Both the position numbers and the translations under genes were made by a program. From Tropicibacter sp. Alg240-R139 (GTDB taxonomy: Bacteria > Pseudomonadota > Alphaproteobacteria > Rhodobacterales > Rhodobacteraceae), in contig NZ_UNRA01000009.1 of NCBI RefSeq assembly GCF_900537075.1, positions 18-64,017 on the forward strand: 64,000 bases of DNA, given 5' to 3'. Positions within the stretch are counted from its first letter, which is position 1, and every line of letters begins with the position of its first letter. This document shows positions 35,607 through 59,690 of the stretch, piece by piece. The notes beneath the pieces are model-generated. The model had not been told where the DNA came from and ran no database searches. It was given only the letters and a program-made list of their open reading frames with translations.

Positions 35607-36893
35607 TCAGTGGGTTCTGACCCCAGAGAATTTGAAGTGTCCTGTTAGCACATTTCTTGCAGCACGTATGCCCTCAAGATGTGCTCCGCTTACTGAGCAT
35701 TGTTGGCTTTGGTGGGATGCTTCGCCAGCGAAGTGTATCCGCTCGGTATGTGGGCAGCCCAGCACCGTTCGCGCCGTGTAGCCCCCCGGATTGGCACCCG
35801 CATATGAGCCGCGCACGTAGGGCTCTTTGCGCCACGCAGTTGCGTGTCCTTTGATGAAGTTCTGTTTGACGGATGTGCCGAAAAAGCCGGTTAGTGTTTC
35901 AAGCGCGTGTTCTATCGCGCTGTCTGGGCCCATCTCCTGCAGATCCCGTGAAAAACTGCCCGAGCTTTCAAAGCTGGTCAGGCCAGTTCCCGAGACGTTG
36001 CACAAAAAGCCTCCTCCGCGCGCCACGCCATGGCTGTCGGGTTCAAGGTGGTAGGTCAGCCAGGTGTCCGAGGGCACGGACAACGTGCCGGGTTGGAAAA
36101 CCAGGCCCGCGTGGTTGTAGTCCCCCATTGTGATCAGTTCAAACGCAGAGCGCCGCTCGGCGTCGAGCGGGGGGTCAAAGCGGATCACATCCTCGGCCAG
36201 GACGCCGACAGAGGCGGTTACGATCACGGCCTGGGCAGAGGTTTTACCGTTGGTAGTCGTAACCTGAATGCCGTCTGGTTTGGCTTTGATGTCCGTCACG
36301 GGGGTGGAGAGCTTTATCGGCAATCCTGTGGCGGTACGGGCGATCAGATGGCCGAACCCTTCGCGGCAGAACCAATCATCTCCGCCTTCCCATGCATCCA
36401 AGTCACGCAAAGATGTGTCTGGTAGATCTCGCGCAAGCGACAGCGCAAAAGTCATTGCTGCAGTGAAAGACCAAGGACCCTTGTCTACAAAGATATCCGC
36501 CAGAGACCGGTCTGTGGAATTGCCGGAGTGTTCCTCAGCTTCGCGATCCACTTGGGCCGCTTTTGTGACCGCAGCTTGGATTTCATCCACTTCATCCCAA
36601 AGAACGGCGTCATCCTCTAGCCCGGATGTCATGCCATTGTCGGGGGCAGGGTACAGGTCAAGGCCGAGGTTCAATCCGGGTGCCTTGAGAGCATTGGCGT
36701 GTTCCGCGTGCAGCCAGTGCGCGCCCATGTCAAAGGGGACGCCAAAGATGCTCGTGTCTGTATGTGTGCGGCCGCCGACGCGGTCCGAGGCTTCGATGCA
36801 GATGACCGAAAGTCCGACGGATACAAGCGTTTGCGTGGCTGCCAGGCCTGCTGCGCCTGCGCCGACGACGATAACGTCATAGTCCGTGGTCAT
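35607..36893 (-). CDS. FAD-dependent amine oxidase
   Basis: 428 residues. The Rossmann GAGAAG is at 11-16, with IEASDRVGGRTHT near 35. GSYAGANPGGYTARTVLG and FAGEASHQSQQCSVSGAHLEGIRAA form the C-terminal flavin-monoamine-oxidase signature. Such enzymes oxidise primary or secondary amines, including polyamines, to aldehydes and H2O2. It ends the island side closest to the IS6, downstream of and co-directional with the Rieske gene. Its substrate may be the amine released by demethylation. Confidence 0.85.
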   Translation of the reverse strand: MTTDYDVIVVGAGAAGLAATQTLVSVGLSVICIEASDRVGGRTHTDTSIFGVPFDMGAHWLHAEHANALKAPGLNLGLDLYPAPDNGMTSGLEDDAVLWDEVDEIQAAVTKAAQVDREAEEHSGNSTDRSLADIFVDKGPWSFTAAMTFALSLARDLPDTSLRDLDAWEGGDDWFCREGFGHLIARTATGLPIKLSTPVTDIKAKPDGIQVTTTNGKTSAQAVIVTASVGVLAEDVIRFDPPLDAERRSAFELITMGDYNHAGLVFQPGTLSVPSDTWLTYHLEPDSHGVARGGGFLCNVSGTGLTSFESSGSFSRDLQEMGPDSAIEHALETLTGFFGTSVKQNFIKGHATAWRKEPYVRGSYAGANPGGYTARTVLGCPHTERIHFAGEASHQSQQCSVSGAHLEGIRAARNVLTGHFKFSGVRTH

Positions 36894-36967
36894 CCGATGG
36901 CTCTCCGGTGTTCATTATTGCGGTGGCTGTGTTGGCGGCGGTTTGATGCGAGTCGATTGTTTGCACG

Positions 36968-37216
36968 TCAGGTAAAGCCAAGTGCAAACTCTGAAACATC
37001 GATGCCTTCATATTTGGCAAGGTCAATTGGATCTTCGGCGTCGAATTTGCTGCACCGGCGATAGATCTCCAGTAGGTCAGCCGACATCATGTTGGCCTGA
37101 TAGAAGAACATTGCAGCGGCATAGCGCGTGGATCCGGATCCGAGTTCACCGACTTTTGCAAACAGAAGTTTTCTTTGGTGTTCGTTTTCCGAGTTTTGCG
37201 TCGAGGCCTTGGTCAC
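36968..37216 (-). CDS. Small unknown protein coupled to the Rieske oxygenase gene
   Basis: 82 residues, soluble and mostly helical, with no recognised domain (LLFAKVGELGSGSTRYAAAMFFYQANMMSADLLEIYRRCSKF). Its GTG overlaps the Rieske oxygenase stop by 4 bp, so it is almost certainly made with it. A partner or accessory role for the oxygenase is an inference from coupling. The real amine-oxidase start lies 75 bp downstream. Confidence 0.65.
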   Translation of the reverse strand: MTKASTQNSENEHQRKLLFAKVGELGSGSTRYAAAMFFYQANMMSADLLEIYRRCSKFDAEDPIDLAKYEGIDVSEFALGFT

Positions 37217-38418
37217 TGATCAGGCGCACCCGTCATGGAGGCGTTCAGCGCAGCCAACCCATCCTCGTCCGGTGCGGTTTCAACATTGTATATCGGGAGG
37301 ACCCGCCGCAGGTGATCGTGATGAGAGCGCACGCCGTACTCCAGATCGGATAGGTAGAACCCTTCGAACGCCTCTGATTGCATGGATTCATTTGACCAGA
37401 CTGTCAGTTGAATGTCCTCTTCTACGGTTTCCCGGTCAATGCGCGCGGCAAGGTATCGCGCGGCTCTTTGCTGGCGATCTTCGACGGGGTTGCGATACGT
37501 GGCGCTGCGAAGGATCGACTTGTCGGTGGAAACCGGAAACTCCTGATAAAACAGAGTTGTCTCTGGCGTAACGGCAATCACTGCGTTTGGGAAAATCCCA
37601 TAGTACAGCCAGGTTTTGTGCAGATGTTCAGGCAAATGCGGTTGAGGTTTTGTGAATTTCTTGTAGTTGCGAACAGCCCATCTGCGCCCTTTGGTCGGGG
37701 TAAAGCGCCCGTCCGAGCGCGAGACGCCGTCAACATACGGTTCATCGGCGTAGGTAAAGCCATAGAGGTCCTGGAGCGCGGGGTGCGCCAGTGGAACATG
37801 GTACCCTTCGTTGTCCACGTCTCGGATCGATTTCCAGTTCACGGGCGTTTCTTCGGTCCAAATGCCGTCCGTTGGGACGTGCTCGGCCATCCTGTAGGCG
37901 GAAAGTTCCTGCTCCATTGGCGCCAAAAGTTCTGCGACAGAGGGTTGAGGGCCAGGTTTGAAGCGCACAAAGACGAAACCGTGCCAGACCTCCATCTCAA
38001 GGGGTTTCAAGCCAAATTCGTGCTTATCCAGTTGAGGGAATGACTCGGGGCGTGCAGCGCCTCGAAGGGTGCCATCAAGATTGTAGACCCACCCATGAAA
38101 CGGGCAAACCAAGGCGTTTGTGCATTTTCCCTGTTCCTTGGCAACAAGGCGCGAGCCGCGATGGCGGCAAATGTTAAGGTAGGCGCGCACTTCGGATGTG
38201 TCGTCTCGAAGAATGATCGCGCGTTCGCCGCACATGTCGAAGCACTGGAAGCTGCCAACCTCGGGGACGTCAGAGACATGGCATGCGATTTGCCAATGCG
38301 TTTTGAACAACTCGCTTTGCTCCAAATCCAATAGAGCGGGGCTGTGATAACACCAGCCCGGCAAACCGCGGCGATCCCAATCCCCAGGGATTTCGGTGTT
38401 TCGTGCATGATCACGCAT
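37213..38418 (-). CDS. Rieske non-haem iron oxygenase, alpha subunit (betaine-demethylase-like)
   Basis: 401 residues. The Rieske [2Fe-2S] site CRHRGSRLVAKEQGKCTNALVCPFHGW is near residue 88, and the mononuclear iron site DVDNEGYHVPLAHP near residue 205. The overall pattern is like the oxygenases acting on stachydrine, glycine betaine or carnitine rather than the aromatic ring hydroxylases. It would O-oxidise an N-methyl group, releasing formaldehyde. No ferredoxin reductase partner gene is in the window. It heads a three-gene minus-strand unit, divergent from the ABC transporter. Confidence 0.85.
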   Translation of the reverse strand: MRDHARNTEIPGDWDRRGLPGWCYHSPALLDLEQSELFKTHWQIACHVSDVPEVGSFQCFDMCGERAIILRDDTSEVRAYLNICRHRGSRLVAKEQGKCTNALVCPFHGWVYNLDGTLRGAARPESFPQLDKHEFGLKPLEMEVWHGFVFVRFKPGPQPSVAELLAPMEQELSAYRMAEHVPTDGIWTEETPVNWKSIRDVDNEGYHVPLAHPALQDLYGFTYADEPYVDGVSRSDGRFTPTKGRRWAVRNYKKFTKPQPHLPEHLHKTWLYYGIFPNAVIAVTPETTLFYQEFPVSTDKSILRSATYRNPVEDRQQRAARYLAARIDRETVEEDIQLTVWSNESMQSEAFEGFYLSDLEYGVRSHHDHLRRVLPIYNVETAPDEDGLAALNASMTGAPDQ

Positions 38419-38572
38419 TTGCAGAGTCCGTTATGGTTTGGCTTTCGGTCGATTTGGCTTGAAGGGGCGGGTGAGGCTGGCCTGACGTGCCAAGAGCTTT
38501 TTGGCGAGACTCGCTGCCCTTCAGTTGGGTCTAGGTGTCTCTCAATTTTTCTGCTCAGTCAACTGCCTCTGA

Positions 38573-38588
38573 CTGAATGGCTATTCAG
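38573..38588. promoter_or_regulatory. BetI-like operator A
   Basis: CTGAATGGCTATTCAG is an almost symmetric 16-bp site (7-bp arms), on the Rieske side of the divergent promoter. Similar sites are at 38742, 46182 and 56760. Confidence 0.6.
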
Positions 38589-38741: not shown

Positions 38742-38757
38742 CTGAATGGTCAGTCAG
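38742..38757. promoter_or_regulatory. BetI-like operator B (weaker)
   Basis: CTGAATGGTCAGTCAG matches the left half of the shared site and most of the right half, 120 bp upstream of the substrate-binding protein gene. Confidence 0.45.
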
Positions 38758-38877
38758 ATAGTTTTGATGGGCGCGACGTTCGACACAAGAACCACTCGGA
38801 AGGGAGCTCTCGGGTCATTCAGTCATCAAAACATATGGACTAACCGCAGTCATCGCTCAGGGAGAGGAAGCGAAGCC

Positions 38878-39987
38878 ATGAATTCAGTCAGAAAAGCCAT
38901 CGGGATATCCGTGCTGGCCGCATCGTCCACGGCGATCTCGGGTGCAGCAATTGCTCAAGAGCGCGTGTTGAAGGTTACGAATTGGGGGGAATACATCGCA
39001 GAAGACACAATCGCAAACTTTGAAAAGGAATACGGCATCAAGGTCATCTACGACCCGTATGACTCGGCCGAAGCGATTGATGCAAAGCTGCTTGCGGGCA
39101 GCAGCGGCTATGACGTTGTAAGCCACGCTGGCAGTGACACGGCACGGCTGATCAAAGCGGGTATCGTCGCGCCGCTGGACGTGACCAAGCTGGACAACCT
39201 TGCGAACATTGATCCCGCTATCATGGGGCAGTTGGCAAGCGAATGGGATCCAGACAACAAGCATTTCATCCCGTATATGTGGGGAACACACGGCGTCACC
39301 TATAATGAGGCGCTGGTGAAAGAGACCTATCCGGATGCTCCGATCGGTACGATGGACATGGTGTTTGATCCGGCGCACATGAAAGAGTTGGCGAAATGCG
39401 GGGTCTCTTTCCTGGACTCACCGGGTGACATCATTCCTATGGCTTTGGCGCACATGGGATTGGACCCCAACTCCACCAACAAGGAAGATTACGAGAAGGT
39501 CGGCGCGATGCTGGCCGAGGTACGTCCGTACATCAAAACCTTTGACAACTACGCCTATCAACGGATGCCTCAGAAAGAATTTTGCGTATCCACCACTTGG
39601 GGTCCCGACGGCCTGCTGGCCATGTCTGGCGCAGAGGAAGCTGATACAGGCGTGGTTCTGGACTTCTTCCTGCCTGAAGGCGAGCGCCGGGCACAGCTTT
39701 GGATTGACGGTTGGTTGATCCCGGCGGATGCGGCCAACAAGGAAGACGCGCATCTGTTCCTGAACTACATGATGCGTCCCGAAGTGGCGGCCAACGACAG
39801 CAACTTTACCTGGTATGCCACGGCTAACCTGACCGCCAAGCCAATGGTTGACGAGGCGGTGACGTCCAGCCCCGCAGCGTTCCCAACGTCGGATCAGGTG
39901 GCCAAGATGTACACTACCGCAGTTCTGCCGCCAAAGGTCGAGCGTTTGCAGACCCGGACCTGGACGGACTTCAAAGCCGGAAACTAA
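38878..39987 (+). CDS. Polyamine-type periplasmic substrate-binding protein (PotF/PotD-like)
   Basis: 369 residues with a signal peptide cleaved after AIAQ (about residue 25). The mature part begins RVLKVTNWGEYIAEDTIANFEKEYGIKVIYDPYD, as in PotF/PotD proteins. ATG 38878 has a strong GGGAGAGGAAG site; the longer upstream frame is discarded. It binds the importer's ligand, perhaps a polyamine or betaine. It is separated by a stem-loop from the ATPase gene. Confidence 0.9.
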   Translation: MNSVRKAIGISVLAASSTAISGAAIAQERVLKVTNWGEYIAEDTIANFEKEYGIKVIYDPYDSAEAIDAKLLAGSSGYDVVSHAGSDTARLIKAGIVAPLDVTKLDNLANIDPAIMGQLASEWDPDNKHFIPYMWGTHGVTYNEALVKETYPDAPIGTMDMVFDPAHMKELAKCGVSFLDSPGDIIPMALAHMGLDPNSTNKEDYEKVGAMLAEVRPYIKTFDNYAYQRMPQKEFCVSTTWGPDGLLAMSGAEEADTGVVLDFFLPEGERRAQLWIDGWLIPADAANKEDAHLFLNYMMRPEVAANDSNFTWYATANLTAKPMVDEAVTSSPAAFPTSDQVAKMYTTAVLPPKVERLQTRTWTDFKAGN

Positions 39988-40003
39988 CTCACTCACGGCA
40001 AAG

Positions 40004-40074: not shown

Positions 40075-41217
40075 TTGACCGTTTCTTCACCTTCCGGTGC
40101 AGCGCCCTGGCTTGACCAGAATGAACAACAGCCTTTGGTTCAAATCAAAGGCGTCACCAAGAAGTACGGCGAGGTTACAGCCGTCGATAATGTCGATCTA
40201 GACATCTACCCGGGCGAGCTTTTCTGCCTTTTGGGGGGTTCTGGCTGCGGGAAATCCACCCTGTTGCGGATGCTTGCCGGGTTCGAGGACCTGAACGGGG
40301 GTTCGATCACGATCGACGGTGTCGATATGGCGAATGTTCCTGCCTATGAGCGGCCAACCAACATGATGTTCCAAAGCTATGCTTTGTTCCCGCATATGAC
40401 CGTGGAAAAGAACGTGGCGTTTGGGCTGGAGCAGGATCAAGTTCCCAAATTCGACATCGCGGATCGGGTGCATGACATTCTCAAGCTTGTGGAATTGGAG
40501 GACTTCAAAAAGCGAAAGCCCAAGCAATTGTCCGGTGGGCAACGGCAGCGCGTCGCCTTGGCGCGGGCCTTGGTGAAGCGCCCAAAGCTGTTGCTGTTGG
40601 ACGAACCCTTGGCCGCATTGGACAAGAAGCTGCGCAAACAGACGCAGTTCGAGCTGGCCAATATTCAAGAAAAAGTGGGCGTCACATTCATCGTCGTGAC
40701 CCACGATCAGGAAGAGGCGATGACATTGTCGTCACGCATGGCGGTCATGGATGCCGGGCGGTTTCAGCAGATCGGGACACCGACCGAGATTTATGAATTC
40801 CCCGAATCCCGCTTTGTTGCGGATTTCATTGGGTCCGCCAATATATTCGAGGGTCGCGTAACCGAGGATGGGGCGGATCACGTGCGGGTGCAGACCGAGT
40901 TTTGCGAGGTTTATATTGATCACGGTCATTCGGTGAAGGTCGGCAGCAAGATCTGGGTTGCCTTGAGGCCCGAGAAAATTCGTATCACCAAAACAGAAGA
41001 GGCGGCGATAGGTCCCAATCAAGTCTCGGCAGTGATTGATGATATCGGGTATCTGGGAGAGACGTCGATTTACAAGGTCGCGCTGCCCAATGGGGACATC
41101 TTCGATGTGACACGGCCCAATCAAACGCGTCCTACGCATGCCACGCAGCAGATCACTTGGGAGGACAAGGTAAACATCAGTTGGGAATCCTCCAGCACCA
41201 TGTTGCTGAGCAAATGA
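40075..41217 (+). CDS. Polyamine-type ABC transporter ATP-binding protein (PotA/PotG-like)
   Basis: 380 residues. Walker A GGSGCGKST is near 54, the Q-loop MMFQSYALFPHMT near 101, the signature QLSGGQRQRVALARAL near 155 and Walker B LLLLDEPLAALDKK near 178. A C-terminal TOBE domain follows. The start is TTG 40075 with weak local support; later in-frame starts are not excluded. The stop overlaps the next ATG by 4 bp. Confidence 0.9.
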   Translation: MTVSSPSGAAPWLDQNEQQPLVQIKGVTKKYGEVTAVDNVDLDIYPGELFCLLGGSGCGKSTLLRMLAGFEDLNGGSITIDGVDMANVPAYERPTNMMFQSYALFPHMTVEKNVAFGLEQDQVPKFDIADRVHDILKLVELEDFKKRKPKQLSGGQRQRVALARALVKRPKLLLLDEPLAALDKKLRKQTQFELANIQEKVGVTFIVVTHDQEEAMTLSSRMAVMDAGRFQQIGTPTEIYEFPESRFVADFIGSANIFEGRVTEDGADHVRVQTEFCEVYIDHGHSVKVGSKIWVALRPEKIRITKTEEAAIGPNQVSAVIDDIGYLGETSIYKVALPNGDIFDVTRPNQTRPTHATQQITWEDKVNISWESSSTMLLSK

Positions 41218-42167
41218 CGGATGTTTCTCACAAACCCTCGCCGACCAGTCAGGGATCATTTGTGTCCCTGGTGATGCGTCGCATCCAAAGCCACTGGCGC
41301 CAGATCATCACCGTCATCCCGTTTTTCTGGCTACTTTTCTTCTTTCTCGCTCCGTTCTTTATCGTGGCTAAAATCAGCTTGGCGGAGCTTGCCATTGCCA
41401 GCCCTCCATTCACGAAGCTGGTCGAATGGACTGACAGCGGGATCGTCACGATCCGGCTGGTTTTTGATAACTTTGTCTACATCTGGGAAGACAGCCTTTA
41501 CTTTGACACCTACGTCAACTCGCTGAAGATCTCGATAACTTCGACCCTTTTGTGCCTCTTGTTCGGCTACCCCATTGCGTATGCAATTGTACGCTCGGGG
41601 CCGGTGGCGAAGCCGCTTTTGCTGTTTGCGATCATCTTGCCGTTTTGGACTTCATTCCTGTTGCGCGTCTATTCTTGGATGGGGCTGCTCGCCGATCAGG
41701 GGACAATCAACAACCTGTTGATCGCGCTTGGGATCATCGATGAACCGATCCGGATGCTCTATACCGAATTCGCGGTCTACATCGGGATTGTTTATACCTA
41801 TATGCCGTTCATGATCCTGCCGCTTTATGCGACGATGGAAAAGTTGGACAACAGCTTGAACGAAGCCGCGGCAGATCTTGGATCGCGGCCCGCAAACACG
41901 TTCTTCAAGATTACACTGCCGCTGACGATGCCGGGGATCATTGCGGGGTCTTTGCTGGTCTTTATCCCGGCGACAGGAGAGTACGTCATTCCCGATCTGT
42001 TGGGCGGCGGCAATGTACAGATGATCGGGCGCGTGTTGTTCAACGAATTTTCCCGAAACAGCGATTGGCCTGTGGCTGCGGCCGTTGCCATCGTCCTGCT
42101 GTTCATTCTGGTCTTGCCGATCATGGTGTTTCAGTATTTCCAGGGCAAAGCGTCGGAGGAGCAGTAG
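41214..42167 (+). CDS. Polyamine-type ABC transporter permease (PotB/PotH-like)
   Basis: 317 residues with six membrane segments and the EAA loop EAAADLGSRPANTFFKITLPLTMPGI near residue 220. ATG 41214 overlaps the ATPase stop (ATGA), so the earlier in-frame start at 41157 is rejected. It forms the membrane channel together with the next gene, whose ATG follows its stop directly. Confidence 0.9.
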   Translation: MTDVSHKPSPTSQGSFVSLVMRRIQSHWRQIITVIPFFWLLFFFLAPFFIVAKISLAELAIASPPFTKLVEWTDSGIVTIRLVFDNFVYIWEDSLYFDTYVNSLKISITSTLLCLLFGYPIAYAIVRSGPVAKPLLLFAIILPFWTSFLLRVYSWMGLLADQGTINNLLIALGIIDEPIRMLYTEFAVYIGIVYTYMPFMILPLYATMEKLDNSLNEAAADLGSRPANTFFKITLPLTMPGIIAGSLLVFIPATGEYVIPDLLGGGNVQMIGRVLFNEFSRNSDWPVAAAVAIVLLFILVLPIMVFQYFQGKASEEQ

Positions 42168-43010
42168 ATGTACGGTAAACGTTCACGCTTTTTGACGATT
42201 ATGCTGACCCTGGGATTGGCGTTCTTCTATATTCCGATGGTCCTGTTGGTGATCTATTCGTTCAACCACTCAAAGCTTGTGCCGGTGTGGGGCGGTTGGT
42301 CCTTGCGGTGGTACTATGAGTTGTTTCAGTCACCTGAAGTCTGGCAGGCTGTGTCCCTGAGTTTGCAGATTGCTGTAGTCAACGCGACCTTTGCAACGGC
42401 CCTTGGAACCTTGGCCGGGTTGGCGATGGTCCGATTTGGCAGGTTCAGGGGGCGGACCCTTTTTGGTGGGATGTTGGTTGCCCCCCTGGTGATGCCCGAG
42501 GTGATCACCGGGCTTTCATTGCTCGTTTTCTTCATCTCGCTCAATCAGTTGATCGGCTGGCCTGCAGAACGTGGGTTTGCCACGATCACCATCGCGCATA
42601 TCACCTTTTCCATGGCCTATGTGGCCGTCACCATTCAGGCGCGACTGACCGGTATGGGCCAAACGTTGGAGGAGGCGGCTGCTGATCTGGGCGCGAAGCC
42701 GTTCAAGGTTCTGACCGCGATCACCATCCCGCAATTGACGCCAGCGTTGATCTCGGGCTGGCTTCTTGCCTTCACGTTGTCGTTGGATGACCTGGTGATT
42801 GCCAGTTTCGTGACCGGCCCCGGCGCAAACACCTTGCCAATTCTGATCTTTTCACGCATTCGACTAGGCCTCAGGCCGGATATCAACGCGCTTGCGACCA
42901 TCATGATTCTTGTAATCGCCATCTGTGTCGCAATCGCTGCCATCGTGATGTTCCGGCAGCAAAGAGCGGATATGTTGGATCGGCAGATGGCCGAGCGAGA
43001 GGAGGGGTAA
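42168..43010 (+). CDS. Polyamine-type ABC transporter permease (PotC/PotI-like)
   Basis: 280 residues, six membrane segments, the EAA loop EEAAADLGAKPFKVLTAITIPQLTPALI near residue 165, and LAFTLSLDDLVIASFVTGPGANTLP, a PotC-type segment. It completes the importer. The TetR/BetI gene starts 1 bp after its stop, so the regulator is transcribed with the transporter. Confidence 0.9.
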   Translation: MYGKRSRFLTIMLTLGLAFFYIPMVLLVIYSFNHSKLVPVWGGWSLRWYYELFQSPEVWQAVSLSLQIAVVNATFATALGTLAGLAMVRFGRFRGRTLFGGMLVAPLVMPEVITGLSLLVFFISLNQLIGWPAERGFATITIAHITFSMAYVAVTIQARLTGMGQTLEEAAADLGAKPFKVLTAITIPQLTPALISGWLLAFTLSLDDLVIASFVTGPGANTLPILIFSRIRLGLRPDINALATIMILVIAICVAIAAIVMFRQQRADMLDRQMAEREEG

Positions 43011-46197: not shown

Positions 46198-46305
46198 AAT
46201 GAGATAATCAATAAGTGTGCAGTGGGTGCTTTGTTGCCTGCTGGAGTTCCATCTTTGGTGTTGTGAGTGAAGTTTGCGGAGCGTTGGCTCGATAGGGGAG
46301 AGAGC

Positions 46306-51200: not shown

Positions 51201-52834
51201 GCTGCGTACCCCTTCATTCGCCCGTGCCGGGTTTCGTGCCTCAGGATTGCTCGAGCTGCGTTTGCACCGGGCGCACCCATGACTCCGCCGCCGGGGTGGG
51301 CAGAGGAACCGCACAGGTACAGACCTTTGATCGGCAGGCTGTATTGCGACCATCCGGGAACAGGCCGATTGAAGAACAGCTGATCAAAGGTCAATTCACC
51401 CTGAAAGATGTTGCCTTCGGTCAGGCCAACTTCGCGTTCAATTTCCAGCGGCGAACGGACCTCCATATGAACCACACGATCGCGAATGTCCGGGCAGGCA
51501 ACCGAAATTTGGTTCAGCACAGTTTCGGCCATCGCGTTGCGCTGCGCGTCGGTCCAATTGTCAGCTGATCTGTTGCCGTCGATGTTCAGGTCATAAGGGG
51601 CGTATTGCACAAAGACCGTCATCATGTGGGCGCCTGTCGGGGCCATGGTCGGGTCGATTTGGCTGGGGATCAGCATGTCGATGTAAGGCTTCTCGGACCA
51701 GCGACCGTCTTTCCAATCGTCATAAGCCCTTTCCAGTTCGAACAGGCTTTCAGAAACATGCATGTCGCCGCGCAAAAAACTGGTGTGTTCCGGCGCGGCG
51801 GGAAAATCGGGGAACTGATCAAGCGAGATGTTCAGCTTGGCCGAGGATCCGCGAATTTTGAAGTTGTTCACGGCCTTTGTGAAATCCTGGGGGAGGTCGT
51901 CCGTATCCACGTGGTGTTGGATGGTGCGCTTGATGTCCATGTTCGACGCAACCACAGGGGCGTAGAAAACCTTGCCGTCTTCCAATGCCACACCTTGCAC
52001 TCGGCCATCTTTGCTCAGGATTTTCTCGACCCCGGCACCGGTGTGGATCGTCCCGCCATGATCTTTGAAGCTGGCCGCAATTGCGTTCGAAATTGCGCCC
52101 ATTCCACCGCGCGCAAACCCCCAGGCGCCAATGCCACCATCGATGTCGCCCATATAGTGATGCAACAGGACATAGGCGGTTCCGGGCGAATAAACCCCAA
52201 GGCCAGTGCCGATAATCCCGGACCCCGCCAAATGGGCCTTGATCAGGTCGTTTTCAAAGTGCTCGTCCAGAAAGTCACCAATCGACATGGTCCAGAACTT
52301 GAGCGTTTCGCCAAGCTCCCGGCTGCCCAAACCGTGCGCCTTCTTGACCAGATACGCGAGTTCGCCAAGGTCGCGTGGGCGCAGAGAAGCTGGGTCGGGC
52401 GCATCGCGCAACAGGAACGGGCGAATGAACCGGCACTGCCGCATGATTGCTTGGGAATAGGCGCGATACGCATCTGCATCGCGTGCAGAATGACGCGCCA
52501 TTTCGCGCCTTAGCGCATTGTGGTCCGAGTAATAGGCAAAGTGGTCACCATCGCGGGTAAAGCTCGCTCCACCTTCGTAAGGGATGACCTGCAGGCCGTA
52601 TTTCGGCAGATCGAGATCACGTGCGATCTCGCGCCGTAACAGTGAGCAGACATACGAGCAGTTCGAATAGGTCCAGCCGTCGTGCAGCGATCTGCTAACT
52701 GCGGCCCCTCCGATCCAGTCGTTTTTTTCAACCACCAGAACATTCATCCCGGCGCGCGCCATATAGGCCGCTGCTGTCAGGCCGTTGTGGCCAGCACCGA
52801 CTACGATCGCGTCATATCTGCTCTCAAGTGTCAA
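51197..52834 (-). CDS. CrtI-fold FAD oxidoreductase (phytoene dehydrogenase-like) 2
   Basis: 545 residues: GAGHNGLTAAAYMARAGMNVLVVEKNDWIGG at the start and GLYLCGSSAHPGGGVMGAPGANAAR at the end. It is a distinct paralogue of the next gene (shared GLxLCG.a.HPGG motifs). It heads the four-gene unit FAD2-FAD1-GcvT-aminotransferase. TTG 52834, with GGGGAGAG six bases upstream, is preferred to GTG 52852. It is divergent from a TetR gene across a perfect palindrome. Confidence 0.85.
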   Translation of the reverse strand: MTLESRYDAIVVGAGHNGLTAAAYMARAGMNVLVVEKNDWIGGAAVSRSLHDGWTYSNCSYVCSLLRREIARDLDLPKYGLQVIPYEGGASFTRDGDHFAYYSDHNALRREMARHSARDADAYRAYSQAIMRQCRFIRPFLLRDAPDPASLRPRDLGELAYLVKKAHGLGSRELGETLKFWTMSIGDFLDEHFENDLIKAHLAGSGIIGTGLGVYSPGTAYVLLHHYMGDIDGGIGAWGFARGGMGAISNAIAASFKDHGGTIHTGAGVEKILSKDGRVQGVALEDGKVFYAPVVASNMDIKRTIQHHVDTDDLPQDFTKAVNNFKIRGSSAKLNISLDQFPDFPAAPEHTSFLRGDMHVSESLFELERAYDDWKDGRWSEKPYIDMLIPSQIDPTMAPTGAHMMTVFVQYAPYDLNIDGNRSADNWTDAQRNAMAETVLNQISVACPDIRDRVVHMEVRSPLEIEREVGLTEGNIFQGELTFDQLFFNRPVPGWSQYSLPIKGLYLCGSSAHPGGGVMGAPGANAARAILRHETRHGRMKGYAA

Positions 52835-52884
52835 AACTCTCTCCCCTCGCACTCTGTTTACAGGCGCGTTGCGATTCCGTAAAG

Positions 52885-52971: not shown

Positions 52972-53610
52972 TTGGCCCCAGCAGAACAGAAGCGCCCCCG
53001 CAAAGAGCGGAAGGAAAACGCAGACCGTCGACGTCGGCAGCTGTTGGATGCGGCGTGCCGTTCGATCCTTGCACATGGATTGGCGAAAACCACTCTGGCG
53101 ACGGTTGCATCCGAGGCGGAACTTTCGCAGGGGGTCGCCGCGTTTTACTTCAAGTCAAAAGCGGGGCTGCTGACTGAAGCACTGCGTGATTTGTACCAGC
53201 GCTACGAAGATCACTGGACAAAGGCGCTGGAACAAGCCGGGGGTAAACCTGCGGAACAGTTGCGTGCTTTGATACGGGCTGATTTTCATCCCGACGCCTG
53301 TGGCCCGATGGTGCTTCCGCTTTGGTATGCGTTCTGGGGCGAGCTTCGGTCTCAGCAGGAATACGACGAGGTGGCCGGCCATTTCGAAGCGCGGCGGCGC
53401 GAGACGCTGTGCGCGATCTGGCAGGACTTGCTGGCAGGACAAGACGCATTGGCCGCCGTTCAGATGGCTGAATGGATGGAAACTCTCACAGACGGGTATT
53501 GGCAGCGCCTGCATCTGGCACCCGGCAGCGTTAGTTCTAAAGAGGCAGAACAAGCCGCATGGGCGTGCCTTGCGCGCTTGGCACCGGACCTGCTTGTTCA
53601 AGACATCTGA
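52972..53610 (+). CDS. TetR-family regulator, BetI-like (2)
   Basis: 212 residues. The helix-turn-helix is at about 20-65 (LLDAACRSILAHGLAKTTLATVASEAELSQGVAAFYFKSKAGL), and the BetI-type LPLWYAFWGELRSQQEYDE region is in the ligand domain. The start is TTG 52972, preceded by AGAGGA. It probably represses the divergent CrtI-fold/GcvT operon through the perfect palindrome 52885-52906, and its own MATE gene, which follows 27 bp downstream. Confidence 0.85.
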   Translation: MAPAEQKRPRKERKENADRRRRQLLDAACRSILAHGLAKTTLATVASEAELSQGVAAFYFKSKAGLLTEALRDLYQRYEDHWTKALEQAGGKPAEQLRALIRADFHPDACGPMVLPLWYAFWGELRSQQEYDEVAGHFEARRRETLCAIWQDLLAGQDALAAVQMAEWMETLTDGYWQRLHLAPGSVSSKEAEQAAWACLARLAPDLLVQDI

Positions 53611-53637: not shown

Positions 53638-54987
53638 ATGACCGCAGAGCGGACAATCGGGCCTGATCGGCCGCCCGCTGGCAGCTTGCTGCGTGAGGCG
53701 CGGCATCTTGCGCGGCTCGCATTTCCGATTGTCGTATCGCTTGCGGCGGCGGCCTTGATCGGGGTTGTTGACACTGTGATGGTGGCCCCCTTGGGAACGC
53801 TTCCTTTGGCGGCTGTGTCGATTACCACATCGGCGCTGATCATCTTCTATTCTGCGTTGTTCGGGTTTGTATCTGCGACAGGCGTTCGCATGGCCGAAGC
53901 GTTTGGTAAGTCCAGCGACCAGGATCTTGTTGCTACTACACGGGTAGTGCTTGTCGTGGCACTAATAGTCGGTGGTCTAGGCACCGCAACAATGCTGGCA
54001 GTTAGGCCTGCTTTGGCTTGGATTGGACAGCCGCCCGAAGTTCTTGGATTGCTTGGCGGTTACTGGGTGTCAATGAGCCTTTTGCTCATTCCCTTTACGA
54101 TCTTTTATGCTTTGAAAGCGTTGTTCGACGCTATTGATCGTCCCTGGATCGGTGTTGGTTTGGCGTTTTTTGCTGTCGGCTGCAACGTTCCGGCGAACTA
54201 TGTGCTGATTCACGGGGTGTCGGGATGGTCCGGCTTGGGCTTGCTTGGGGCAGGCGTTGCAAGTCTGCTCTCCCAAACCCTCTCGTTGATTTTGGCTTTC
54301 TTGATTTTCTGGAGGTGGAGCAAGCAGATAGGAGTGCCTTCTCAACCTGGTTTTGACTGGGGGGAATTGAAACTTCAGCTCAAAGAAGGGTCTGTGATCT
54401 CGCTCGGGTATCTGGGCGAGGGTGCCGCCTATGCCGTCGCTGGATTGATGCTGGGATGGTTCGGAGCGGCAGCACTGGCCGCGCATCAGATCGTATCTGC
54501 TGTGAGTGATGTCATTTATATGGTCCCCATGGGCATATCGATTGCGATCTCAATCCGGGTGGCGCAGGCGATTGGCGCGAATGAGAGAGAGCGGCTTAGG
54601 CCAATTGTGCTGGCATCGTTGTTTGTGGTCGCCAGTTGGATGAGCCTGGTCATCACGGGTATTCTTCTGGCGCGCGCGCCGTTGGCACAGGGGTTGTCGG
54701 ATGATGCCGACGTGGTCGCGCTTGCGGTTTCGATGTTTCTGGTGATTGCAGCAATGCAGATCGCAGATGGGGTGCAGGGAACGATGTTGGGCGTGTTCCG
54801 GGGCATGACGGACAATCAAATCCCGGTTGTCATAACGCTGTTTTCCTATTGGATCATCGCCTTGCCAGTTGGCTACGTTCTGGGGTTTGTACTGGATTGG
54901 GGGCCTAATGGCGTGTGGATCGGATATGGCTTTGGTCTGGGGTTGGCGGCTGTCGCTCTGAGCTATCGCTTTTTCTCTCGAGTGTAG
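53638..54987 (+). CDS. MATE-family efflux transporter
   Basis: 449 residues with 12 hydrophobic segments arranged in two halves typical of MATE/NorM cation-coupled exporters (LIGVVDTVMVAPLGTLPLAAVSI near residue 40; ALFGFVSATGVRMAEAFGK). It is probably co-transcribed with the preceding BetI-like gene. Function in this setting may be export of a toxic amine, formaldehyde adduct or product. It is convergent with the FAD oxidase. Confidence 0.85.
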   Translation: MTAERTIGPDRPPAGSLLREARHLARLAFPIVVSLAAAALIGVVDTVMVAPLGTLPLAAVSITTSALIIFYSALFGFVSATGVRMAEAFGKSSDQDLVATTRVVLVVALIVGGLGTATMLAVRPALAWIGQPPEVLGLLGGYWVSMSLLLIPFTIFYALKALFDAIDRPWIGVGLAFFAVGCNVPANYVLIHGVSGWSGLGLLGAGVASLLSQTLSLILAFLIFWRWSKQIGVPSQPGFDWGELKLQLKEGSVISLGYLGEGAAYAVAGLMLGWFGAAALAAHQIVSAVSDVIYMVPMGISIAISIRVAQAIGANERERLRPIVLASLFVVASWMSLVITGILLARAPLAQGLSDDADVVALAVSMFLVIAAMQIADGVQGTMLGVFRGMTDNQIPVVITLFSYWIIALPVGYVLGFVLDWGPNGVWIGYGFGLGLAAVALSYRFFSRV

Positions 54988-55004: not shown

Positions 55005-56297
55005 CTAGAGACCCAGTTTGTCCAACAGTTTAAGGCGCAGGATCTCGGCCTCAACCAGTGTTTCCCGTGCGAAAGATAACGGCAGTGGCTTGAGGGGTGA
55101 AACAGGGAAATCCAGTTCTTCGGCGGATTCTCCGGCAGCCCAACGCGCCAACACGCGCCCCATCGCCGTGGCGATGGCAACGCCGCGCCCGTTGTAGCCA
55201 AGTCCCGCGTAGATCCCAGGGGCCAACTCGTGCAGGTGCGGATAGTGGTCCCTTGTGAGCGCAACGAAACCGCCCCACGCGTAGTCCCACTCAACGTCGG
55301 CAAGTTGCGGAAACAGCTCGACCGAGATGCGCTTTAGCTGCTCAATCTGTCGGCGTGTTGATCCATCATTGTAGGTTCCGCGCCCTCCCATCAGAAATCT
55401 ACCTTCAGCGTCTTGTCGGAAATACAGCAACAGACGGCGTGCGTCGGACAAGGCGTTGCCTTCGGGCAGGATCGACCGGCGAATGTTGTCCGAAAGCGGA
55501 GGCGTCGCCACCTGCACCGATCGGACGGGCAGGACAGATCTGGCGACCTTGGGATCAAGATCGCCAGAGTAGGCGTTCGTGCAGATCAGGACCTTGTCCG
55601 TCACGATGGCTCCGTTTGGCGTTTTCACCTTATATCTGCTGCCTTTCGCCTGTATGTGCTCGGCTCGAGTGTCGCCGTAAATTGCCACACCCTTGCGATG
55701 CGCAGCATCTGCCAGTCCAAGGGCATAGTTCAGCGGATGCAACACGCCGCCACGCCGGTCCAAGACACCTCCGATGTAAGCTTCTGTTCCTGTCAGGCGC
55801 TGCATTTCGGCTTGATCAAGCTTCTTCATGCCGCCGCCATGTCTGTCCCAATCTTCGGCCAGCTCATGTAGCTGTTGCAGCGTCTTGGGTGTATGTGCGG
55901 CCCGCAGCCAGCCGGGACGTTTGGCATCGCAATTGATCTGATGGCGCTCGATCAGGTCAAACACCAGATCGCCCGCATCCCCGGCCATGCGGATCATCCG
56001 CTGTCCCCAATGGTCACCGAATTTCGATCTTATTCCCGTTGGACCATCCTTGAGGCCCACATTGATCTGACCGCCGTTGCGGCCAGAGGCACCCCAACCG
56101 GGATGTTGGGTGTCAATCAGGGTGACGCTGGCGCCTGCTTCGGCCAAGTGCAAGGCAGCTGAAAGCCCGGTAAAACCAGCGCCTATGATGGCGACATTTG
56201 CCTGCTGTTCGCCGTTCAATTCGGGGTAGCTGTCCATATATTTGGTCGTTGCCGACCACAGACTGTTAGCAATTACGGGGTTCTCGTTTCGGATCAT
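55005..56297 (-). CDS. FAD-dependent amine oxidase (gamma-glutamylputrescine oxidase-like)
   Basis: 430 residues of the DAO/PuuB group. The FAD-binding GAGFTGLSAALHLAEAGASVTLIDTQHPGWGASGRNGGQIN is near residue 30, and the C-terminal GLGYNGRGVAIATAMGRVLA closes the fold. The N-terminal NSLWSATTKYMDSYPELNGEQQANVAIIG is typical of PuuB-like enzymes. It oxidises N-substituted amines; a modified polyamine or N-methyl amine is possible. ATG 56297 is chosen over longer starts. It is divergent from the small 56378 gene. Confidence 0.88.
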   Translation of the reverse strand: MIRNENPVIANSLWSATTKYMDSYPELNGEQQANVAIIGAGFTGLSAALHLAEAGASVTLIDTQHPGWGASGRNGGQINVGLKDGPTGIRSKFGDHWGQRMIRMAGDAGDLVFDLIERHQINCDAKRPGWLRAAHTPKTLQQLHELAEDWDRHGGGMKKLDQAEMQRLTGTEAYIGGVLDRRGGVLHPLNYALGLADAAHRKGVAIYGDTRAEHIQAKGSRYKVKTPNGAIVTDKVLICTNAYSGDLDPKVARSVLPVRSVQVATPPLSDNIRRSILPEGNALSDARRLLLYFRQDAEGRFLMGGRGTYNDGSTRRQIEQLKRISVELFPQLADVEWDYAWGGFVALTRDHYPHLHELAPGIYAGLGYNGRGVAIATAMGRVLARWAAGESAEELDFPVSPLKPLPLSFARETLVEAEILRLKLLDKLGL

Positions 56298-56377
56298 CTG
56301 TGAACCTCTGGTGCTTGCTTTGACGCAGGATAGGCATAGCTTGGGTTTCGGGAACTCACCAAGGCGGACACAACACC

Positions 56378-56707
56378 ATGCCCAGGCTTTTGAACCAGTT
56401 TGATCTGAAACCATCCGTCGAGCTGGAGGTGTTCGAGCAAGCGTGGAACAGCTTTGTTGATGTCTTGATCAGCAGTGGTTTGGCCAAGAAAGGTACACCT
56501 TTGTGCCAACGCGTGCCGAGCAGTGGTTATGACACGGACGAAGAACGCCAGCATTCTCTGATGGCAGTGATCGAGTTTCGCGATCAGGCCCAGGCGGATC
56601 GAGCATGGGCGGCCATCGAGGATCGAATTGAACCTCTGGGTCAGTCGCATCGCAGAGTCATCTCGTTGGTGCATGATCCGGTTTTCACTTTCTGGGCTGA
56701 ACTCTAA
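56378..56707 (+). CDS. Small unknown protein of the methylamine island
   Basis: 109 residues, soluble, alpha/beta, dimeric alpha-beta barrel-like pattern (SLMAVIEFRDQAQADRAWAAIEDRIEPLGQSHRRVISLVHDPVF). No function is recognised. It lies directly before a BetI-like regulator and its operator, divergent from the amine oxidase. It may help that oxidase or the downstream dehydrogenase. Translation is supported by length, codon pattern and clean position. Confidence 0.65.
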   Translation: MPRLLNQFDLKPSVELEVFEQAWNSFVDVLISSGLAKKGTPLCQRVPSSGYDTDEERQHSLMAVIEFRDQAQADRAWAAIEDRIEPLGQSHRRVISLVHDPVFTFWAEL

Positions 56708-56759
56708 GTATCAAGTCACGTTGGCCTTGGTGTTGTGATGAAAAGTTTTTCCTCTCATT

Positions 56760-56777
56760 ATTGAATGAGCATTCAAT
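56760..56777. promoter_or_regulatory. BetI-like operator D
   Basis: ATTGAATGAGCATTCAAT has 8-bp perfect arms around a 2-bp centre, 106 bp upstream of the third BetI-like gene. It is the strongest of the shared operators. Confidence 0.7.
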
Positions 56778-56883
56778 CAATGCAATATGCTTGGAGCGGG
56801 TTCCTTTCATGGGTGCCGGATCGGACAGCGATTTGGCTCAAGCGCTGAATGACCTGCGCACGGGGAAATTGAGAGGGGCTAGT

Positions 56884-57552
56884 ATGAGCCAATCTATTGA
56901 AGCCAGTCCAAAGACCAACGCGCGCCGCCGCACCGCGTCCAAAGAAGTGCGGTGCCAGCAGTTAATCAACGCAACCATCGATTCAATTGCCAGGAATGGA
57001 ATTGGTGGCACCACCATGTCGACGGTGACGGAAAGCGCGGGCTTGTCGATGGGGATCGTCAATTTCCACTTTCAGTCCAAACAAAATCTGCTGGAAGAAA
57101 CGCTATTGTATTTGGCTAAGGAGCATCACGAACAGTGGCTGGCCGCGTTTGAAAGCGCGGGCATGTCTGCATCCGACAAGCTGTTGGCCATTGTGGATGC
57201 GCATTTTCATCCGCGGATATGCACACCTAAAAAGCTTGCTGTTTGGTTTGCATTCTTCGGTGAAGCTGGACGGCGCAAGGTCTATCGCAAGCTGATCGAG
57301 GATATCGATCGGGAACGCTATACCATTGCCCAGGATCTATGTCAGCAGATCGGGGAGGAAGGCGCGTATCAGGGTCTTCCACCACGACAAGTCGCCAACA
57401 TTCTCGAGGCGCTTTACGACGGAATTTGGCTTGAGTTGCTGGCGTATCCAGAAAACTACGGACGCCTAGAAGCCCGCGATCACATCACGGCCTTCTTGTC
57501 TAAAGTCTATCCCAAGCACTTCCAAATGCCGGAGTTCAAGCAAGACGCATAA
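56884..57552 (+). CDS. TetR-family regulator, BetI-like (3)
   Basis: 222 residues from ATG 56884; the longer frame from 56761 would run through operator D and is rejected. The HTH is near residue 25 (RCQQLINATIDSIARNGIGGTTMSTVTESAGLSMGIVNFHFQSKQNLL), and the ligand domain has KKLAVWFAFFGEAGRRKVYRK. This closely resembles the first BetI-like protein (43012), so both may read the same operator family. The next gene is the trimethylamine dehydrogenase-like enzyme, 74 bp downstream. Confidence 0.88.
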   Translation: MSQSIEASPKTNARRRTASKEVRCQQLINATIDSIARNGIGGTTMSTVTESAGLSMGIVNFHFQSKQNLLEETLLYLAKEHHEQWLAAFESAGMSASDKLLAIVDAHFHPRICTPKKLAVWFAFFGEAGRRKVYRKLIEDIDRERYTIAQDLCQQIGEEGAYQGLPPRQVANILEALYDGIWLELLAYPENYGRLEARDHITAFLSKVYPKHFQMPEFKQDA

Positions 57553-57626
57553 ACCTGGCAGGCACTGTGTTCCCAGCCATCTGAACCGGTCATCCAGTGA
57601 ACAAAGATAAGCAAGGACCAGACACA

Positions 57627-59690
57627 ATGGGTCGAGATCCCCGCTACGACATTCTATTTGAACCGGTTCAAATTGGACCGGTGACAGCTCCGAACCGCTT
57701 TTTCCAGGTGCCTCACTGTACGGGCATGGGGTGGCAATATCCGCGAACGCTTGCGGCGATGCGCAAGGTCAAAGCGCAAGGCGGCTGGGGGGTGGTCTGC
57801 ACGGAATACAACTCGATCCACCCCTCCTCGGACGACCTGCCGCACCCCTATGCGTCTCTTTGGGATGACAGTGATGTTCGCGCCCATACCCTTATGACAG
57901 ATGCCGTGCACGAATACGGAAGCCTAGCAGGGGCCGAGCTTTGGTATGGCGGTGCCAATGCAAACAATCTGTTTTCGCGATTGCCCGGGATGGACGTCGA
58001 CAGCCTGCCGAACGCCAAGGGGCACCCGTTCCAGACTCGTGCCATGGACAAACAAGACATCAAGGACCTGCGCCGGTGGCATCGTAAAGCAGCACTCCGG
58101 GCGAGAGAGGCGGGATTTGATGTGGTCTATGTCTATGCAACACATGGCTACCTGATCTCGAACTTCCTGAACCCGCGTGTGAACACACGTAGCGACGAGT
58201 ATGGCGGCAGCTTGGAAAATCGCGTGCGCCTGACGCGCGAGTTGATTGAAGAAACCAAGGATGCGGTGGGTGACCGCTGTGCGGTTGCAGTGCGGTTCTC
58301 GGCGGATGAAGAGATTGGCGAGGACAATCAGCCGATATTTGGTGAACGCCGCGAGATGTTCGAAATGCTCGCGGATCTGCCGGATCTCTGGGATATCAAC
58401 ATTGCGGACTATTCGCTTGAAATGGGTGTGTCGCGCTTTGTCAAAGAAGGCGCGTTAGAGCCATATATGCAGTGGGTTAAGTCGGTGACGGACAAGCCAG
58501 TGGTCACTGTGGGCCGCTTCACATCGCCCGACACAATGGTCAGCCAGGTTCGCCGAGGTATCACCGATTTTATCGGCGCGGCGCGGCCCTCGATAGCGGA
58601 TCCCTACCTACCCAAGAAGATCGAACAAGGTCGATTGTCAGCCATACGCGAGTGCATTGGCTGCAACGTATGCTACGCCAGTGACTCCATCGGTGTTCCG
58701 CTGCGCTGCACCCAAAACCCAACGATGGGAGAGGAGTGGCGCAAGGATTGGCATCCCGAGATCATCAGGAAAAAGTCGTCGGACGCCCGCGTTCTGATTG
58801 TTGGCGCGGGTGCTGCGGGTTTGGAAGCCGCCCGCGCCCTTGGTGCGCGCGGGTATGATGTCATGTTGGCCGAAGCCACTCGCGAGATTGGCGGGCGTAT
58901 CGCGCGCGAAGCAGCTTTGCCTGGGATGAGCGAATACATCCGGGTCAAGGACTACCGCGAGCAGCAATTGCTCGAAATGCCTAACGTTGAAGTTTTTCGC
59001 GAAAGCCGACTGACCGTTGATGACGTGATCTCGGTCGAGGCTGACCACGTTGCAATTGCAACGGGTGCAAGCTGGCGTAAAGAATACTACGACGACGAAT
59101 GCTATCAATCAGTTGCGAGCGGTGAAGCTTTGACCCGTGTTTTTACACCAGACGACATCATGGACGGGAACCTGCCAAACGGGCCAACCTTGGTTTTCGA
59201 TGGTGATGGCTACTACATGGCAAGTGTCGTCGCCGAGCGGATACGTGCTGAGGGGCATGCCGTCACTTTGGCTACATCATCTGATAGCGTGTCGGATTGG
59301 GCCGGAAAGACATCCGAAAGGTGGCGCATTCGAACGCAATTGCACCGGCTTGGAATCGACATTCTTCCCTCAAACAGCTTGACACATTTTTCGGGCGATG
59401 CGGCCTCTTTGAATTGCGTCTACAGTGGTCGTGAAACAAAGCTGCCTGTCCAGAACATTGTAATGGTTACAGCCCGCAAGCCAAATGACTGTTTGTACAA
59501 AGCGCTATGCCTTCGCCCAGAAGACGAAAAACGACCCTTTAGCCTAACACGGATTGGGGATTGTGAGGCGCCCGGGATCATCGCAGCGGCCATCTATGCT
59601 GGCCATCGATACGCCCAGGAGTTGGAGTGCGAAGTGGATTTGGATATTCCGCTTTTGCACGACCGCATTGATGTCGGATCCAAAGGATAG
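57627..59690 (+). CDS. Trimethylamine/dimethylglycine dehydrogenase-like flavoprotein (Fe-S)
   Basis: 687 residues. The N-terminal old-yellow-enzyme TIM barrel binds FMN (YDILFEPVQIGPVTAPNRFFQVPHCTGMG). The [4Fe-4S] site CIGCNVC...RC is near residues 343-361. The C-terminal half has a Rossmann FAD/NAD domain (VLIVGAGAAGLEAARALGARGYDVMLAEA). It matches trimethylamine dehydrogenase and the DgcA-like dimethylglycine enzymes in layout. It likely demethylates an N-methyl amine and passes electrons to an electron-transfer flavoprotein not present here. ATG 57627 is chosen over GTG 57597. Confidence 0.9.
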   Translation: MGRDPRYDILFEPVQIGPVTAPNRFFQVPHCTGMGWQYPRTLAAMRKVKAQGGWGVVCTEYNSIHPSSDDLPHPYASLWDDSDVRAHTLMTDAVHEYGSLAGAELWYGGANANNLFSRLPGMDVDSLPNAKGHPFQTRAMDKQDIKDLRRWHRKAALRAREAGFDVVYVYATHGYLISNFLNPRVNTRSDEYGGSLENRVRLTRELIEETKDAVGDRCAVAVRFSADEEIGEDNQPIFGERREMFEMLADLPDLWDINIADYSLEMGVSRFVKEGALEPYMQWVKSVTDKPVVTVGRFTSPDTMVSQVRRGITDFIGAARPSIADPYLPKKIEQGRLSAIRECIGCNVCYASDSIGVPLRCTQNPTMGEEWRKDWHPEIIRKKSSDARVLIVGAGAAGLEAARALGARGYDVMLAEATREIGGRIAREAALPGMSEYIRVKDYREQQLLEMPNVEVFRESRLTVDDVISVEADHVAIATGASWRKEYYDDECYQSVASGEALTRVFTPDDIMDGNLPNGPTLVFDGDGYYMASVVAERIRAEGHAVTLATSSDSVSDWAGKTSERWRIRTQLHRLGIDILPSNSLTHFSGDAASLNCVYSGRETKLPVQNIVMVTARKPNDCLYKALCLRPEDEKRPFSLTRIGDCEAPGIIAAAIYAGHRYAQELECEVDLDIPLLHDRIDVGSKG

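Follow-up and report, generated by a model that had tools for sequence, protein, structure and literature searches.

A conserved 18-gene island in Tropicibacter sp. Alg240-R139 and its putative role in methylated-amine catabolism

The island described here lies in a 64,000-nucleotide stretch of the genome of Tropicibacter sp. Alg240-R139, which we refer to as the window: bases 18-64017 of contig C9 (72,877 bases), one of 14 contigs in a genome of 4.66 Mb. The 18 genes between positions 35607 and 59690 encode a Rieske oxygenase (RO), a polyamine-type importer with its substrate-binding protein (SBP), several amine-oxidising flavoproteins, a class III aminotransferase, an S-adenosylmethionine (SAM)-dependent methyltransferase (MT), a MATE exporter and three regulators. 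A preliminary description of this DNA had proposed an island of about 18 genes from named families, and the open reading frame list and profile scans agree with it: every frame is intact and the broad families are as claimed. Among the 18 genes is a trio encoding two CrtI-type flavoproteins, CrtI2 and CrtI1, and a stand-alone GcvT-like protein.

Conservation of the gene set

Two genomes that belong to a different genus, g22 (G249 and G160), hold the complete set: their 3.6- and 1.0-Mb contigs carry all 18 genes in identical order, with proteins 67-96% identical to those of the island. DNA similarity to loci L050 and L049 starts at position 35671, and similarity to a Falsiruegeria mediterranea locus (L058; 87.9% over 18.5 kb, the alignment being cut on its other side by the locus edge) ends at 59724, just past the last gene. 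These edges, together with the colinearity in the two g22 genomes, indicate that the island is real beyond chance. Judging from the sequence comparisons, the 18-gene set is a co-inherited unit.

We sought CrtI2 in 292 genomes of the order at a threshold of 1e-100 and found it in 17; the co-occurrence profile used 16 of these (at least 61% identity), and the 17th (G094, 36%) was left out. RO is found in 18 of the 292 genomes and shares 14 of the 16 CrtI2 genomes where ~1.0 would be expected, and MT is found in 20 and shares 15 where ~1.1 would be expected (hypergeometric p 1.3e-18 and 4.8e-20, respectively, phylogeny being ignored). The histamine/trimethylamine-dehydrogenase-like (HADH-like) protein occurs in 45 genomes, including 11 of the 16 (~2.5 expected). 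Among the CrtI2 genomes, no match was found for RO in G124 and G231, for MT in G285, and for the HADH-like protein in G018, G110, G195, G227 and G231.

The 16 CrtI2 queries were then compared with 84,980 species genomes, giving at least 592 pattern matches, of which at least 582 are relatives at E 1e-3. The locus counts in this text rest on the best 80 of these at least 582 relatives (~60% identity or more), with neighbours grouped within 10-kb flanks that are often cut by contig ends, so that distal genes are missed; the groups depend on mechanical frames and Louvain clustering. Mesorhizobium is over-represented, and L065 and L067 are probably the same genomes as G103 and G195. The hosts comprise Falsiruegeria, Ruegeria, Roseovarius, Shimia, Hoeflea, Mesorhizobium, Shinella, Phyllobacterium, Kiloniella, OM182, Halieaceae and other metagenome-assembled genomes. 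The preliminary description had called for a neighbourhood search for the GcvT-CrtI-CrtI-aminotransferase unit, and the unit does recur: 78 loci have a member of the CrtI2 group, 74 CrtI1, 71 GcvT, 65 a BetI-type regulator and 46 the class III aminotransferase, a second aminotransferase type being present in 11. Importer genes are also frequent (ATPase in 57 loci, permease-2 type in 50, permease-1 type in 33), with two types of binding protein, SBPx in 45 loci and the window type in 10. MT occurs in 42 loci, Rieske proteins of three groups in 23, 9 and 5, the MAO-type oxidase in 23, PuuB, HADH-like and aldehyde dehydrogenase (ALDH) genes in 8 each, and glutamine-synthetase-like genes in 7. The core parts (BetI-like regulator, CrtI2-CrtI1-GcvT, aminotransferase, MT, polyamine-type importer and RO) thus recur in Roseobacters, rhizobia and gammaproteobacteria; importer and MT were not seen in the OM182 loci within the stretches visible, and the MATE pump was seen in close relatives only. 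Versions of the module lie on named plasmids of Parasedimentitalea, Shinella, Rhizobium and Fuscovulum.

Three further protein groups adjoin the module in some relatives. Proteins of ~400 amino acids (for example L108:15678-16883; the member scanned had no Pfam match) occur in 13 of the 80 loci and adjoin the module in Mesorhizobium. A PhyH-family dioxygenase group stands beside it in L060, L061, L062, L064 and L071, and an Asp/Arg-hydroxylase-like group in L083, L122, L128 and L130, one member of each having been scanned.

The CrtI2-CrtI1-GcvT trio and the Rieske oxygenase

The trio lies on the reverse strand in the order CrtI2 (51197..52852, CrtI/CrtO-like), CrtI1 (49668..51200, assigned by library and Pfam profile scans) and GcvT-like aminomethyltransferase (48496..49671). 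Each neighbouring pair is joined by an ATGA stop/start overlap, the starts of CrtI1 at 51200 and of GcvT at 49671 being later than those of the longest frames. The frame of the class III aminotransferase (47100..48482, reverse; NF005447 629 bits, over the cut-off of 618) starts 14 bases past the GcvT stop. In 71 of 79 copies CrtI1 follows CrtI2, and GcvT comes next in 68. The GcvT-like protein exceeds the cut-offs of PF01571 (188.7 bits) and PF08669 and so belongs to the GCV_T family; its DDG motif, the Asp of which we take to be catalytic, is present in all 86 alignable rows, 4 of the 90 rows being gapped. CrtI2 has the fold of a CrtI/MAO-type flavoprotein and stays under the curated carotenoid cut-offs (CrtO 257.6 of 1000 bits, CrtI family 113.7 of 238.1). 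In 22 of the 74 cases among the best 80 loci, the protein grouped as CrtI1 resembles CrtI2 more than it resembles CrtI1. Two weaker CrtI2 matches (L042 and L043, 36-41%) have no adjoining CrtI1 or GcvT homologue, which assigns the module to the close clade.

In DMGDH and SarDH, a single chain unites a flavin part that oxidises N-methyl amines, with FAD as cofactor, and a folate domain of the GcvT type. The island encodes one protein of this type (43658..46117, reverse; DAO, FAO_M, GCV_T and GCV_T_C in Pfam; TTWHAAGL motif), and the trio would share with it the combination of FAD oxidation and GcvT-type folate logic. In contrast, the flavoproteins of the trio are CrtI/MAO-like rather than DAO-like, there are two of them, and the three proteins come from three separate genes. 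The host genome has 22 GCV_T domain matches, 21 of them over cut-off and many in frames of 690-1000 amino acids, a large set of DMGDH/SarDH-type paralogues. Open PMC full texts yielded no description of a CrtI-CrtI-GcvT unit in searches of which few were worded for the unit itself, subscription literature being outside their scope, and the core has no name as a unit in the profile libraries searched; the trio is apparently uncharacterised. The same open texts do not contradict the earlier statement that the island is undescribed, with most subscription papers again outside their scope.

RO (37213..38418, reverse; PF00355 and PF00848) represents a subgroup with the motif RDVDNEGYHV, which is present in all 31 relatives at 45% identity or more. 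With RO as the Foldseek query, ranks 1-17 are CntA or Stc2 entries throughout; sequence identity to the group V enzymes is ~20%. The bridging Glu (CntA E205), whose role in CntA is treated in PMC7948474, is conserved in all 32 rows (the window RO and 31 relatives). RO resembles the group V Rieske enzymes CntA, GbcA and Stc2 in its bridging Glu and, as far as the Foldseek ranks go, probably in its overall fold. It differs from them at the position of CntA Tyr203 (Asn in Stc2), which is Asp in all 32 rows in place of the aromatic residue of group Va. Some group V members have a Cys-x-x-Cys adjoining the iron site (PMC10952381); RO and its relatives have GYHV there in all 32 rows. Rieske proteins with the classic group V motifs ENYxECYHC and ENYNECLHC occur in 9 and 5 of the best 80 loci, and the 23-locus Rieske group is a mix of two motif types.

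A possible further difference from group V systems concerns the electron donor. The host genome encodes five PF00970 proteins, none of them on C9. Four were typed, as PaaE, BoxA and two ferredoxin-NADP-reductase-like proteins, and no GbcB/CntB-type reductase was found among these four, other reductase types being outside the search; the best GbcB score, 146 of 500 bits, came from PaaE. The fifth (L149) is 407 amino acids long. The genome has a single electron transfer flavoprotein (ETF) alpha gene, on contig C6, and a single formyltetrahydrofolate synthetase (FTHFS) gene, on contig C2. The parts reported missing from the window, namely the reductase, ETF and folate genes, are thus consistent with the genome, where the single ETF-alpha, the single FTHFS and the PF00970 proteins all lie off this contig.

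Importer, further island proteins and borders

The importer is encoded on the forward strand by the SBP gene (38746..39987, likely start 38875; PotF 1a99 294.5 bits), an ATPase gene of the PotA/PotG type (40075..41217; TIGR01187 405 bits, over cut-off), a PotH-type permease 1 gene (41157..42167, the true start probably further downstream; NF007963 395 bits, under cut-off) and a PotI-type permease 2 gene (42168..43010; NF007889 353 bits, under cut-off). All four components are closest to Pot-type families, as in PotFGHI importers; they differ in a pocket altered at PotF S38, S85, F88 and F276, and in SBP and permease scores under the equivalog cut-offs. At the PotF positions D39, E185, D247 and D278, which we take to contact putrescine, SBP has Glu39, Asp185, Asp247 and Asp278, so that all four acidic positions are kept, and it has Trp276. 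Its 14 homologues mostly retain the same residues (Asp247 in 14, Asp278 in 13, an acid at 185 in 13 and at 39 in 14, Trp276 in 13). The second binding protein found on the module, SBPx (for example L117:6101-7189), keeps the aromatic PotF sites and has lost most of the acidic ones. In the pooled set of 69 proteins, 59 of them SBPx, Trp37, Tyr40, Trp244, Trp276, Tyr314 and Asp185 are kept in 65-67, position 39 is Gly in 57, position 247 is Thr, Ala or Ser in 58 and position 278 is Cys in 58. From these pockets we infer a dication as the ligand of the window SBP and monocations for SBPx; module loci with SBPx may well serve monocations.

The HADH-like FMN/[4Fe-4S] protein (57597..59690, forward) had been labelled TMADH-like. 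The label fits the family broadly, but histamine dehydrogenase (3k30, 692 bits) is a better match than trimethylamine dehydrogenase (TMADH; 1djn, 537 bits). The protein resembles both over its full length and presumably shares with them the position of the FMN-linked Cys. The TMADH residues Y60, W105 and W264 are kept and W355 is replaced by Asp. Of the TMADH aromatic bowl, which we take to be Tyr60, Trp264 and Trp355, the protein therefore retains Tyr and Trp, with Asp in third place. The histamine dehydrogenase set (Gln60, Trp263 and Asp354 in Rhizobium numbering) is likewise incomplete, the residues found being Tyr, Trp and Asp. The site is mixed: Asp at the Trp355 position is as in histamine dehydrogenases, whereas Tyr60 and Trp105 are absent from both histamine dehydrogenases aligned. 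The combination Tyr60, Trp105, Trp264 and Asp355 is present in 17 of 35 rows (the window and 16 others); the other 18, among which the L143 row is misaligned or broken, differ, mostly by Glu, Gln or Phe at 60. According to PMC10180351, Asp358 and Trp267 of the Nocardioides histamine dehydrogenase (Asp354 and Trp263 of the Rhizobium enzyme) belong to the substrate-site or tunnel residues, and agmatine and putrescine or 1,3-diaminopropane are further substrates of histamine dehydrogenases.

Two genomes (G107 and G010) carry the same importer (75-88% identity per subunit; SBP 80 and 75%, permease 2 88 and 87%) adjoining two or three tandem HADH-like genes, and neither is among the 17 of 292 genomes with a CrtI2 match. 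We read the HADH-like block and the CrtI block as two interchangeable means of oxidising a single imported amine. Across L139, L140, L141 and L145 (and L143, L146 and L147), two or three HADH-like genes stand in tandem beside polyamine-type importers, and the tandem paralogues diverge at the substrate site, with Tyr60/Trp105 in some and Glu60 with Ala/Asn or Gln60 with Cys in others.

The remaining island genes encode two amine oxidases, MT, the exporter and the regulators. The MAO/polyamine-oxidase-type FAD amine oxidase (35607..36893, reverse; PF01593 168.9 bits) is closest in the PDB to the catalytic domains of LSD2 and LSD1, followed by MAO and polyamine oxidases; we set aside a special link to LSD1 as ordinary superfamily similarity. 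The PuuB/AmaA-type FAD amine oxidase (55005..56414, reverse) has no PDB sequence match at 1e-10; the earlier PuuB assignment was right as to broad type, and the highest score is that of L-pipecolate oxidase AmaA (NF050086, 342.7 bits, under the cut-off of 600). MT (46267..47085, forward; Pfam) is phosphoethanolamine-N-methyltransferase-like, its closest PDB entry being phosphomethylethanolamine N-methyltransferase 2 (5wp5, 99 bits). Few genes accompany CrtI2 as faithfully, although a demethylation route offers no evident step for a methyltransferase. The MATE exporter (53638..54987, forward) scores 203.6 bits with TIGR00797, over cut-off. The three TetR regulators, all on the forward strand, are BetI-like as first described (43012..43644, TIGR03384 105.9 bits; 52972..53610, divergent from CrtI2, 106.5 bits, with TetR_C_6; 56761..57552, 106.4 bits), and all score under the BetI cut-offs (201.3 bits for TIGR03384; 96.6-106.5 of 118 bits for NF001978).

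On this contig the island is indeed bounded by IS6-family elements. Element A, on the left, occupies 34743..35557 (reverse; transposase 34794-35504, NF033587 218.6 bits), with terminal inverted repeats at 34743 and 35544-35557, and element B, on the right and unlike A, occupies 60095..60914 (reverse; transposase 60149-60868, NF033587 234.1 bits), with repeats at 60095 and 60901-60914; each pair of repeats has 1 mismatch in 14. The borders say little about origin, given the 3.6- and 1.0-Mb contigs that hold the set in G249 and G160. A composite transposon built from two copies of the same element was rejected because the terminal repeats of A and B differ. As to recent transfer, a 2-kb GC scan, the only composition measure used, found no sharp break at the borders. 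Megablast of positions 35500-60000 against 72,556 plasmids gave three records, each covering 3% or less, and no near-identical plasmid copy. C9 is probably a plasmid, since it carries a ParA/MinD-type ATPase gene (28657-29979); a gene for a phage-integrase-family recombinase lies at 31174-32292. Elsewhere in the window, a CopD-family gene followed by a multicopper oxidase gene (21601-23861) forms a possible copper-handling pair, and a long reverse frame (61451-63955) reads as a putative piece of indolepyruvate ferredoxin oxidoreductase.

A putative route for methylated amines

Co-inheritance, the probable fold and the bridging Glu of RO, the Asp motif of GcvT and the DMGDH-type protein together point to methylated-amine catabolism. 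We consider it reasonably probable that the island is an inducible system which takes up an N-methylated, probably dicationic amine and removes its N-methyl groups oxidatively, one step at a time. The importer, assigned to the PotFGHI type by its profiles, would take up the amine, and RO would begin the attack by oxidising an N-methyl group (or a C-N bond), drawing electrons from a donor whose gene lies elsewhere. CrtI2, CrtI1 and GcvT would then act as one split flavin/tetrahydrofolate demethylase, a reaction suggested by their co-inheritance and motifs: the flavoproteins would oxidise the N-methyl amine to an iminium, and GcvT would pass the one-carbon unit to tetrahydrofolate. Further methyls or amine ends might be removed by the DMGDH-type and HADH-like proteins, with electrons going to the single ETF of the genome. 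The MAO- and PuuB-type oxidases and the class III aminotransferase would convert the freed primary amines to aldehydes, and the three BetI-like regulators would control three transcription blocks.

Betaine catabolism had been named as the other possible function, and a pathway for a zwitterion such as a glycine betaine-, stachydrine- or carnitine-like compound, demethylated by the Rieske enzyme and then by the flavin/GcvT enzymes, is the strongest rival, though an unlikely one. The GbcAB/DMGDH/sarcosine, stachydrine and hydroxyproline-betaine pathways begin with a Rieske step and continue with flavin demethylases. Consistent with such a pathway, the nearest structures to RO in Foldseek are CntA and Stc2, classic group V genes accompany some of the 80 loci, and SBPx, with its aromatic pocket sites and few acids, is present in 45. 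However, the four acidic diamine-pocket sites of the window SBP argue against a simple betaine as its ligand, RO lacks two group V features, and the MAO, PuuB-type, HADH-like and omega-aminotransferase enzymes would be nearly idle on most betaines. The island also differs from the betaine pathways in having no neighbouring reductase, a polyamine-type importer, extra primary-amine enzymes and the CrtI pair. The methylated-amine part of the original proposal is thus supported, and betaine is less likely for the window importer.

Quite improbable in our view is the catabolism of ordinary unmethylated di- or polyamines or biogenic amines, with demethylase-like proteins recruited to other amine oxidations. 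The PotF-like SBP, the similarity to histamine dehydrogenase, the MAO- and PuuB-type oxidases and the class III aminotransferase would all suit it, and some relatives have PuuC-like ALDH and glutamine-synthetase-like genes. Against this account, three families linked to one-carbon chemistry lie in one syntenic unit: a GcvT whose Asp motif is intact, a protein of the DMGDH type and a Rieske protein resembling the quaternary-ammonium oxygenases. In OM182 locus L128 the neighbours include an MMSDH-type ALDH over cut-off, a PuuB-type oxidase, a glutamine-synthetase-like protein (GlnA 225 and γ-glutamylputrescine synthetase 221 bits, both under cut-off) and a GbcA-like Rieske protein (271 of 670 bits). 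As far as these profile scores go, L128 is again a locus that joins primary-amine with methylated-amine enzymes.

If the island were a chance neighbourhood of two or three separate amine operons, each under a BetI-like regulator of its own, this would account for the importer standing with HADH-like genes (L139 with RO, L141 without), for the BetI3-HADH pair beside another importer in L143 and L147, and for CrtI blocks with other importers. We regard this as very unlikely, since both g22 genomes keep the whole order (67-96% identity), and across the 292 genomes the distribution of RO and MT follows that of CrtI2. A biosynthetic cluster that produces and exports a methylated amine is hardly credible: MT and the MATE pump belong to the island, and CrtI-type and Rieske enzymes do occur in biosynthesis, but the island has a complete SBP-dependent importer and several amine oxidases, and no assembly-line or scaffold-forming enzyme is among its 18 genes.

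Several individual compounds were considered as substrates. A malonate-semialdehyde end product, which a three-carbon amine such as β-alanine betaine would give, was not adopted: one OM182 locus has an MMSDH-type ALDH, but five ALDHs tested from other loci score best as PuuC, all under its cut-off. Literature searches gave no direct lead to trimethyllysine, diatom long-chain polyamines or β-alanine betaine. Mgd takes part in homarine catabolism according to PMC13390433; library scans assigned none of the 18 proteins to Mgd, a result judged by name, the homarine genes themselves not having been compared.

Within N-demethylation of a methylated amine, we suggest tentatively, as a possibility we do not favour outright, that CrtI2-CrtI1-GcvT is a new and widespread class of heteromeric demethylase with a carotene-desaturase fold, which would hand N-methyl carbon to tetrahydrofolate by way of a separate GcvT protein, paired with the new RDVDNEGYHV Rieske subgroup, for a methylated diamine or polyamine outside the known pathways. 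In this reading MT might even add a methyl group to an intermediate and thereby make it cleavable by RO. It is plausible that the island is a new variant of methylated-amine catabolism with a new enzyme arrangement. Methylated amines are a large marine pool of dissolved organic nitrogen and one-carbon units. The core unit is present in most of the best 80 loci, which range from Roseobacters and rhizobia to OM182, and this points to a substrate that may be absent from present-day metabolic maps. The trio is also well suited to testing whether folate-linked demethylation makes use of a recruited CrtI fold.

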